From Polaromonas sp. (GTDB lineage: Bacteria > Pseudomonadota > Gammaproteobacteria > Burkholderiales > Burkholderiaceae_C), in the NCBI GenBank assembly GCA_028292045.1, contig JAQGMZ010000074.1, positions 1 through 32,020 of the forward strand: a stretch of DNA of 32,020 nucleotides. The letters are read 5' to 3'. Numbering within the stretch: the first letter of the stretch is position 1; each line of letters starts with the position of its first letter. Positions 27,047 to 31,588 of this stretch are shown one piece after another. Below the pieces are notes generated by a model. It did not search any database, was not told the DNA's origin, and saw only the letters and a program-made list of their open reading frames with translations. The position numbers and the translations under genes were made by a program.

Positions 27047-28585
27047 TCAACCTTGTGCAGCCACCCGATCAGCTTTACTTTGAAGTTTATTCAAAGCACT
27101 TAAATAAGCTTTGGCTGACGCCACCACAATGTCGGGATCCGCGCCTACGCCGTTCACAACCCGACCGCTATTTTGTAAACGCACGGTCACTTCTCCCTGG
27201 CTTTCCGTCGAACCGCTGATCGCATTCACTGAATACAGCACCATCTCGGCGCCACTTTTGACATGCGTTTCAATCGCTTTCAATGAGGCATCGACCGGTC
27301 CATTTCCATCAGACTGGGCCTTGACCTCTTTGCCCGCCACCGTAAAAACCACACAGGCCTGCGGGCGTTCACCGGTCTCGCTGTGCTGTGACAAGGAGAC
27401 AAAACCGTATTGCTCGTTGCTTTGGCTGATGCTCTCATCATTGACCAGGGCAAGAATGTCTTCGTCGAAAATTTCGCTTTTTCGGTCTGCCAGGTCCTTG
27501 AACTTGATGAACGCATGGTTGATTTCGGTTTCGCTTTCCATTGCCACGCCAAGCTCTTGCAACCGCTGCTTGAATGCATTGCGCCCGCTCAGCTTGCCCA
27601 GCACAATCTTGTTGGCGGACCAGCCCACATCCTCGGCACGCATGATCTCGTATGTGTCGCGTGCCTTGAGCACGCCATCCTGGTGAATGCCGGAAGCATG
27701 GGCAAATGCATTGGCACCCACCACGGCCTTGTTGGGCTGCACGACAAAGCCCGTGGTCTGGCTGACCAGGCGGCTGGCCGACAGGATTTGCTGCGTGTCA
27801 ATGCCAAGCTCAAGCCCAAAATAGTCTTTGCGGGTTTTGACCGCCATGACCACTTCTTCCAGCGAGCAGTTACCCGCACGCTCACCCAAGCCGTTGATGG
27901 TGCATTCAACCTGCCGCGCGCCGCCGATCTTGACGCCTGCCAGTGAGTTGGCAACCGCCATGCCCAGGTCGTTATGGCAATGGACCGACCATACAACCTT
28001 GTCGCTGTTGGGAATGCGTTCGCGCAAGTTCTTGATGAAAGCTCCGTAGAGTTCAGGAATGGCATAGCCCACGGTATCCGGAACATTGATGGTGGTGGCG
28101 CCTTCCTTGATCACTGCCTCGATGACCCGGCACAAGAAGTCAGGATCAGAACGGTAGCCATCTTCAGGACTGAACTCGATGTCGGACATCAGGTTACGGG
28201 CAAACCGCACCGAAAGTTTGGCCTGTTCAAACACCTGGTCAGGCGTCATGCGGAGCTTTTTTTCCATGTGCAGCGCACTGGTCGCCAAAAAGAGATGCAA
28301 GCGGCCTGAATTGGCAGGTTTCAACGCTTCGGCTGCAAGCGAAATATCGCGGTCGTTGGCACGCGCCAATGAACAGATGGTTGAATCCTTGATGACTTCA
28401 GCAATCGCCCTGACGCATTCAAAGTCGCCATTCGAACTTGCCGCAAAACCGGCTTCAATGACATCGACTTTCAGCCGCTCGAGCTGCCGGGCAATGCGCA
28501 GTTTTTCATCTCGAGTCATGGAGGCGCCTGGTGATTGCTCGCCATCGCGCAAGGTAGTGTCAAAAATAATGAGTTTGTCAGTCAT
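27047..28585 (-). CDS. leuA: 2-isopropylmalate synthase
   Basis: [63 protein letters not shown]...[51 protein letters not shown]-terminal regulatory domain present. Start at ATG 28585, not the ORF start at 28750. Confidence 0.97.
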
Positions 28586-28723: not shown

Positions 28724-28760
28724 AAAAAAAACGGCCCGTTGCTGGTGCAAACGGGCCGTT
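28724..28760 (-). terminator. Intrinsic terminator in the leuA leader (attenuator)
   Basis: Minus strand: AACGGCCCGTT-TGCACCAGC-AACGGGCCGTT with T8 tract, 11-bp perfect stem, upstream of leuA. Confidence 0.82.
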
Positions 28761-28780
28761 GAATCGGGTACACGCGTACG

Positions 28781-28834
28781 CTACCGTCTCCGCCCGTTGG
28801 CAGATAGGAATAGGGCTAGCGAAATCGAGTTCAT
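28781..28834 (-). CDS. Putative leuA leader peptide MNSISLALFLSANGRRR
   Basis: ATG AAC TCG ATT TCG CTA GCC CTA TTC CTA TCT GCC AAC GGG CGG AGA CGG TAG; all three Leu codons are CTA; ends 20 nt before the terminator hairpin; begins 18 nt after the pssA stop. Confidence 0.75.
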   Translation of the reverse strand: MNSISLALFLSANGRRR

Positions 28835-28852
28835 CAGGTCAATGTACCACAT

Positions 28853-29665
28853 TTATTTGTGAAGGCCCCGCTCGTCGGGCTCGTCGGTTGAGGTGGAAAT
28901 CACACTTGTCTGCTCTCCCTTGGCCTTGCGCCATCCATAAAGTGCGTAGCCCGACAGGCCATAAATCACGAACAAGCCGAACATGACCGTGGGTGGATCG
29001 ATATTGATGATGGCAATTCCAAGCGCAATCAGCACAATCACCACAAAGGGGACGCTGCGCTTCATTTGTATATCCTTGAAACTGTAAAACGGCACGTTCG
29101 TGACCATGGTCAAGCCGGCATACAGCATCAAGCCAAAGGTGAACCACCGGACTTCGATTCCCTTGATACCCAGGTCGTTCATCAGCCAGATGAAACCGGC
29201 CACCAGCGCAGCAGCGGCGGGCGAAGGCAAACCCTGAAAAAATCGCTTGTCGACCACGGCTGTATTGACATTGAAGCGAGCGAGGCGCAAAGCCGCACAA
29301 GCACAGTAAACGAATGCGCCAATCCAGCCCCAGCGTCCCAGGGTAGTCAGTGCCCAGACATAGGCAATCAGGGCAGGCGCCGCTCCGAAGGACACCATGT
29401 CGGACAAAGAATCCATCTGCTCGCCAAATGCGCTTTGGGTATTGGTGAGGCGAGCGATACGGCCATCCAGGCTGTCCAGCACCATGGCGCAAAACACACC
29501 AACGGCAGCATTGTCAAATTGGCCGTTCATGGCCATGACAATGGCGTAGAAGCCGCCAAACAGTGCGGCGAGCGTGAACAAGTTAGGCAATATGTAAATG
29601 CCTTTGCGCCGCTTGCGCGGCAGGATTTCTTCGTTCGCCGAAGCGGGATTTTCACCATCAAGCAT
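28853..29665 (-). CDS. pssA: CDP-diacylglycerol--serine O-phosphatidyltransferase
   Basis: GIYILPNLFTLAALFGGFYAIVMAMNGQFDNAAVGVFCAMVLDSLDGRIARLTNTQSAFGEQMDSLSDMVSFGAAPALI (CDP-alcohol phosphatidyltransferase motif DG-AR-G-D-D). Confidence 0.95.
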   Translation of the reverse strand: MLDGENPASANEEILPRKRRKGIYILPNLFTLAALFGGFYAIVMAMNGQFDNAAVGVFCAMVLDSLDGRIARLTNTQSAFGEQMDSLSDMVSFGAAPALIAYVWALTTLGRWGWIGAFVYCACAALRLARFNVNTAVVDKRFFQGLPSPAAAALVAGFIWLMNDLGIKGIEVRWFTFGLMLYAGLTMVTNVPFYSFKDIQMKRSVPFVVIVLIALGIAIINIDPPTVMFGLFVIYGLSGYALYGWRKAKGEQTSVISTSTDEPDERGLHK

Positions 29666-31474: not shown

Positions 31475-31588
31475 ATGAAGATTCCTCTTTTCGCTGCCCT
31501 CCCCTGCGCACGGTAATGCGCAGGCTCGGCAGTCAATAGATTCGTCAGTTGACGGGGTGAATAAAAATGCGGGAAGGCGCCGTTGCGC

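Follow-up and report, generated by a model that had tools for sequence, protein, structure and literature searches.

Between pssA and leuA of a Polaromonas sp. (assembly GCA_028292045.1, contig JAQGMZ010000074.1), the minus strand carries a tiny reading frame with three CTA codons, which raises the question of what such an element does 249 nt before the gene of 2-isopropylmalate synthase. The window, i.e., the whole stretch of DNA analysed, comprises 32,020 nt, and coordinates count from its position 1. A sequence-only reading had interpreted the region as a leucine attenuator, an interpretation that appears well supported by the comparisons described here. The CTA-rich leader is very probably a leucine sensor that would switch the pathway on when leucine is short, and we assign a probability of about 0.88 to a ribosome-mediated leucine attenuator of leuA with a near-leaderless leader, stalling at CUA codons, and a choice between terminator and antiterminator. 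The basis for this is given by the ORF, its codon bias, the pairing, the promoter spacing, the conservation, and the gene context, all of which are shown by comparing sequences (Table 1).

The leader region

Table 1. Positions of the leader elements and of the regulated gene in the window, and of the aromatic leaders in other genomes
Feature	Position	Strand	Basis
Extended -10 promoter element TGGTACATT	28841..28849	-	TGnTAnnnT 6-10 nt before ATG in 73 leaders
Predicted transcription start	about 28836-28833	-	At or just before leader ATG; predicted from -10 spacing
Leader ORF, 17 codons, MNSISLALFLSANGRRR and stop	28834-28781 (ATG 28834-28832)	-	Sequence; conserved in 74/80 loci; CTA enrichment
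Control codons, three CTA	28819-28817, 28813-28811, 28807-28805	-	Sequence
Antiterminator 5' arm AACGGGC (segment 2), codons 13-15	28792..28798	-	GGGC:GCCC pairing; GGG bias
Antiterminator hairpin, base AACGGGC:GCCCGTT (GCCCGTT 28756-28750), variable inner stem	28750..28798	-	Predicted fold
Terminator hairpin, 11-bp arms AACGGCCCGTT (28760-28750) and AACGGGCCGTT (28740-28730)	28730..28760	-	Sequence; compensating changes in relatives
Terminator T8 tract	28724..28731	-	Sequence; T-rich tract in every aligned relative
leuA (2-isopropylmalate synthase), regulated gene, ATG 28585	27047..28585	-	Relatives align from ATG at 83-95% identity
Aromatic leaders	L188-L194, 225-266 nt upstream of aroG; L097 (G093 C1:3503990-3504136)	L097 -	

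The leader ORF reads ATG AAC TCG ATT TCG CTA GCC CTA TTC CTA TCT GCC AAC GGG CGG AGA CGG TAG. This 17-codon frame with its three CTA codons had already been described, and every base and coordinate has turned out to be right. The distance of 20 nt from the stop codon to the 11-bp hairpin with its ensuing T8, the complementarity of AACGGGC to GCCCGTT in the 5' arm of the terminator, and the partial repetition of the 3' arm by AACGGGC have likewise been verified in the sequence. As had also been pointed out, the ORF caller runs leuA through the whole region, namely back to a TTG within the terminator (28750) instead of the true start at ATG 28585, and the attenuator would explain why ORF callers misplace this start. 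The hairpin was missed by the terminator scanner, which probably reflects a loop of 9 where the scanner allows at most 8. In the same cluster, an ilvH RNA (Rfam RF02993, 96.7 bits) has been located just upstream of ilvH (31479-31546, minus strand), which represents a separate regulatory-RNA candidate.

CTA codons and predicted competing hairpins

Taking the leuA genes of the loci and the window's own genes as the codon background, CTA makes up 179 of the 330 Leu codons in 73 leaders (54%) as opposed to 12 of 2737 (0.4%) in the corresponding leuA genes; within the window, it is absent from leuA, pssA, and ilvC and occurs once in ilvH. The description of the leader as CTA-only holds for the window, with relatives mixing CTA and CTG, and the neighbouring genes indeed prefer CTG, followed by TTG and then CTC rather than by CTC directly. 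The occurrence of CTA is highest at six and at four codons ahead of GGG, which corresponds to codons 8 and 10 of the window, and no aligned sequence deviates from CT at codon 8. A short, Leu- and CTA-rich ORF before leuA, as is typical of ribosome-mediated (leader-peptide) attenuators, has thus been found. An ordinary terminator of the ilv-pssA operon next to a chance short ORF, without any regulation, would fit the position of the hairpin downstream of pssA, where it would stop pssA read-through, but a chance ORF would neither give 54% CTA or conserved Leu positions nor explain the conserved promoter and the invariant second copy of the terminator arm, and this explanation is extremely improbable.

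The usual ribosome footprint extends ~12 nt downstream of the first base of the A-site codon, so that a stall at codon 6 or 8 would free AACGGGC, a ribosome at codon 10 would mask roughly half of this arm, and one that has reached the stop codon would mask it. The stall geometry proposed earlier, with the ribosome waiting at the first or second CTA, would agree with CTA codon 8 as the most conserved codon. A point against the attenuator model is the proximity of CTA codon 10 to AACGGGC, some of which would be masked by a ribosome waiting at this codon. For the leu attenuator of Salmonella, CUA has been described as the sensitive control codon; exchanging it for CUG lowered the sensitivity (PMC1183508).

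For the leu leader of Polaromonas, we infer start site, translation, stalling, switching, and leucine response as follows. RNA polymerase would start at the extended -10 element, giving a transcript that begins at the leader ATG or a few bases from it, and a ribosome would load on this nearly leaderless 5' end. With charged tRNA-Leu for CUA available, the ribosome would reach the stop codon and cover AACGGGC, the terminator would form, and transcription would end at the T tract. Under leucine shortage, the ribosome would stall at CUA codon 6 or 8 and leave AACGGGC free to pair with GCCCGTT as the base of the antiterminator, and the polymerase would read into leuA.

Both hairpins have been compared among the relatives. 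The terminator, which is an intrinsic one placed between leader ORF and gene as in attenuators, has shown compensating changes in 25 both-side cells compared to 7.3 in shuffles, none of 500 shuffles reaching 25, and this covariation is carried by two base pairs of the alignment. The GGGC:GCCC core of the antiterminator is paired in all 48 distinct sequences, and owing to its invariance no covariation is measurable among them, which is expected if the 5' arm of the terminator must pair with two partners. A mutually exclusive antiterminator with a ribosome-masked 5' arm, as attenuators possess, is accordingly found at the level of the sequence, without covariation. A lack of conserved Leu codons or pairing in relatives, which would have spoken against the sequence-only reading, has not been encountered: Leu codons, CTA bias, arm, terminator, and position before leuA persist throughout the family, and covariation has been recovered for the terminator but not for the antiterminator. 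The predicted antiterminator hairpin is longer than the 7 bp originally assigned to it.

Leader Gly codons are GGG in 68 of 86 cases as against 9% in leuA, the codon after GGG varies (Arg, Gln, His, Pro, Leu) with its first C nearly always kept, and in three loci (L073, L079, L091) the string ACGGGC is kept in a different reading frame. This codon-level pattern of GGG, kept C, and altered frames is the strongest sign of a selection on RNA and not on protein. A further reading is that the leader, as RNA or as peptide, affects other genes in trans like rnTrpL/peTrpL of Sinorhizobium, besides or instead of attenuating leuA. In its favour, the RNA set free on termination would be leaderless and about 110 nt long and would thus be comparable to rnTrpL (PMC7298713). 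The peptide, however, varies outside the Leu codons and the antiterminator segment, and the conserved leader end is kept as an RNA sequence across reading frames, which renders an action in trans highly unlikely.

Folding the leaders without the 3' arm of the terminator has placed the antiterminator in the MFE structure of 73/73 leaders (mean -18.9 kcal/mol). Its inner stem is weakly better than shuffled sequence overall (mean z -0.69) and unsupported in the window (z +1.27), and the detail of this inner stem is therefore uncertain. As a further point against the model, the stability of the terminator greatly exceeds that of the antiterminator, so that the switch would have to be kinetic. On the 5' side of the antiterminator arm, RNAalifold has detected no helix that is conserved, and there is thus no sign of a classical protector (1:2) hairpin. 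At the antiterminator edge, a G-C pair has been observed in L080, L076, and L036 where other leaders have A-U. Directly after the stop codon, GCGCACGCG is conserved in L003-type leaders (window 28780-28771) and forms the antiterminator tip in many sequences; folding of the antiterminator does not fully explain its conservation. A polymerase pause at GCGCACGCG has been considered and rejected, as the segment folds within the antiterminator loop in many sequences.

Promoter spacing and conservation

The distance from TGnTAnnnT to the leader ATG amounts to 6 or 7 nt in 65/73 leaders and to 8-10 nt in the others, with two of the longer spacings arising from a script that picked the hexamer too early, and the conserved extended -10 consensus before the leader is TGnTACATT. 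An SD-like 4-mer at -20 to -5 has been found in none of the 55 leaders tested, compared to 65/73 leuA genes. With a conserved -10 spacing and no SD, transcription is expected to set in at the leader ATG or slightly upstream of it, and the leu leader is probably leaderless, with its start within a few bases of the ATG. Leaderless genes have been reported in Cupriavidus metallidurans (PMC7563307) and Burkholderia cenocepacia (PMC4603805), leuA receiving no mention in the main texts of either report. The attenuator might also operate without being leaderless, on transcripts from ilv-pssA or from a start farther upstream, with translation coupled to the pssA stop codon, in line with which the genes share their direction and 18 nt separate the stop codon of pssA, which ends at 28853, from the leader ATG. 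We regard this as unlikely, since all 73 leaders retain the -10 element at its conserved spacing, including those followed by a different leuA, and since the leaders of aroG described below combine the same promoter with the same distance in the absence of pssA.

A leuA protein search has yielded 80 loci in Comamonadaceae and close relatives, 74 of which carry the element at the head of leuA operons. The Leu-rich ORF stands directly before leuA in 53 loci plus L017 and L068, and in 19 further loci (in L064 only in part) the element precedes a second leuA-like gene that heads the operon; of the other six loci, two are cut by a contig end. Absence of the leader from some leuA loci had been considered and was dismissed, because a second leuA-like gene actually lies in between. 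Tandem leuA operons, in which a leuA-like gene (about 26-28% identity) precedes the window-type leuA and the attenuator heads the pair, have been observed at L002, L003, L018, L021, L026, L034, L046, L058, L062, L069, L071, L077, and others. Divergent leaders of 19-36 codons occur at L010, L074, and L080, where promoter spacing and late Leu codons are kept.

A covariance model (R1) built from 49 of these loci has given the window element as its sole match in the own genome (E 1.6e-21). By itself, R1 matches 149/201 genomes of the family, the lack of a match in the other 52/201 being perhaps due to divergence, and 16/300 genomes across the order, where some of the weak matches are not this element. 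At all ten loci with strong order-wide matches (L082-L091), the element is directly followed by a leuA homologue; several of these homologues are non-orthologous, with only about 26% identity to the window leuA, so that the element stays with the function and not with one gene. This retention of its place with another leuA paralogue, the leaderless start, and the longer antiterminator were all absent from the sequence-only reading.

Related leaders and known systems

A leaderless aromatic leader before one copy of aroG (DAHP synthase) has been found in 7/7 Comamonadaceae genomes. It follows the same promoter element at 7-8 nt from its ATG, encodes peptides such as MQARTSFYFYFWFSSPAEER and MQSRNFFAFYFWFSVPGGREARL, and is followed by an intrinsic terminator (ACCGCCG...CGGCGGTTTTTT). 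The final codons of the leader contain the antiterminator arm GGCGG, with which the 5' arm of this terminator is able to pair. The Comamonadaceae scan has given no aromatic leader at trpE or at the second aroG copy, and its Ile/Leu/Val version no leader at ilvB. The same layout at aroG supports the reading of the leu leader as an attenuator, and the leaderless arrangement is thus no quirk of the pssA-leuA junction.

Regarding other families of Burkholderiales, a strict scan (TAnnnT, 5-9 nt, ATG, and a short ORF in which eight codons include four or more Leu, at most 500 nt from leuA) matches 43/86 genomes, compared to a mean of 0.6 and a maximum of 3 in dinucleotide shuffles. These leaders (L104-L127, L128-L187) stand mostly 160-260 nt before leuA, use CTG codons, and have LLLRPAR, LLRVRAH, or a similar string as their last residues. 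In 45/47 of the other-family leaders, a hairpin in the final codons scores above the leader's own shuffles, with stems that are changed but matched (TGCGC/GCGCG, GCGCC/GGCGC, TGCGCG/CGCGCA). Over the first 25 nt downstream of the stop codon, C accounts for 41% and G for 11% of the bases. A U-tract terminator, as judged by eye, is absent from most of them and present in L106 and L110. In many of these families, the leader's own conserved hairpin precedes a C-rich tract and no U-tract terminator is present, and the read-out may rely on a different mechanism, perhaps a Rho-dependent one. One may tentatively suggest that the leaderless Leu ORF is the ancestral leuA sensor throughout Burkholderiales and that the read-out has been swapped, with terminator and antiterminator in Comamonadaceae and a different mechanism in many of the others.

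The kind of control is already known from the CUA leu leader of Salmonella and the leaderless leaders of Corynebacterium and Sinorhizobium. Like leuL of Salmonella and E. coli (Rfam Leu_leader, RF00512), the window leader encodes a Leu-codon peptide before leuA, with CUA as control codon (PMC1183508) and alternative antiterminator and terminator, and the rare CUA control codons of RF00512 correspond to its CTA enrichment. Unlike leuL, it has no SD and probably no 5' leader, the antiterminator arm lies inside the last codons of the ORF, and no protector hairpin has been found. RF00512 has no match in the window at the gathering threshold nor among the permissive matches of the region, and no relevant Rfam family covers the element at either threshold; weak matches to suhB and anti-hemB, which overlap the hairpin, have been discarded as far below the cut-offs.

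The ilvB leader peptide of Corynebacterium has no ribosome-binding site and starts at the ATG, and leu (leuA) and aroF leaders are listed in the same organism (PMC4046766, PMC5784534). This leaderless system is, however, actinobacterial and without visible sequence similarity, and its ATG start refers to ilvB, the start of leuA being unmapped in C. diphtheriae. The trpL/rnTrpL attenuator of Sinorhizobium meliloti is similar in that the ATG of the leader ORF forms the 5' end of its transcript (PMC7298713), and differs in that it senses tryptophan, is alphaproteobacterial, and has an RNA and a peptide that also act in trans. The LEU element of Actinobacteria shares a Leu-rich upstream ORF before leuA (PMC1262725), but its proposed pseudoknot pairs with the leuA SD, and it has no terminator-antiterminator switch. 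Open-access papers have yielded no description of a leader-peptide attenuator in Comamonadaceae or of a leu leader in Betaproteobacteria; subscription journals, including a proteobacterial attenuator survey (cited in PMC1262725), were mostly uncovered, and an earlier report of a betaproteobacterial leu leader is therefore possible.

For the Comamonadaceae, a large family common in freshwater and soil, the element offers a sequence-based, testable account of how leucine synthesis may be controlled, in which the rare-codon (CUA) logic would be used in a lineage far from the enterobacteria. Its likely leaderless start would also provide a natural system in which to ask how ribosomes load fast enough to match RNA polymerase.
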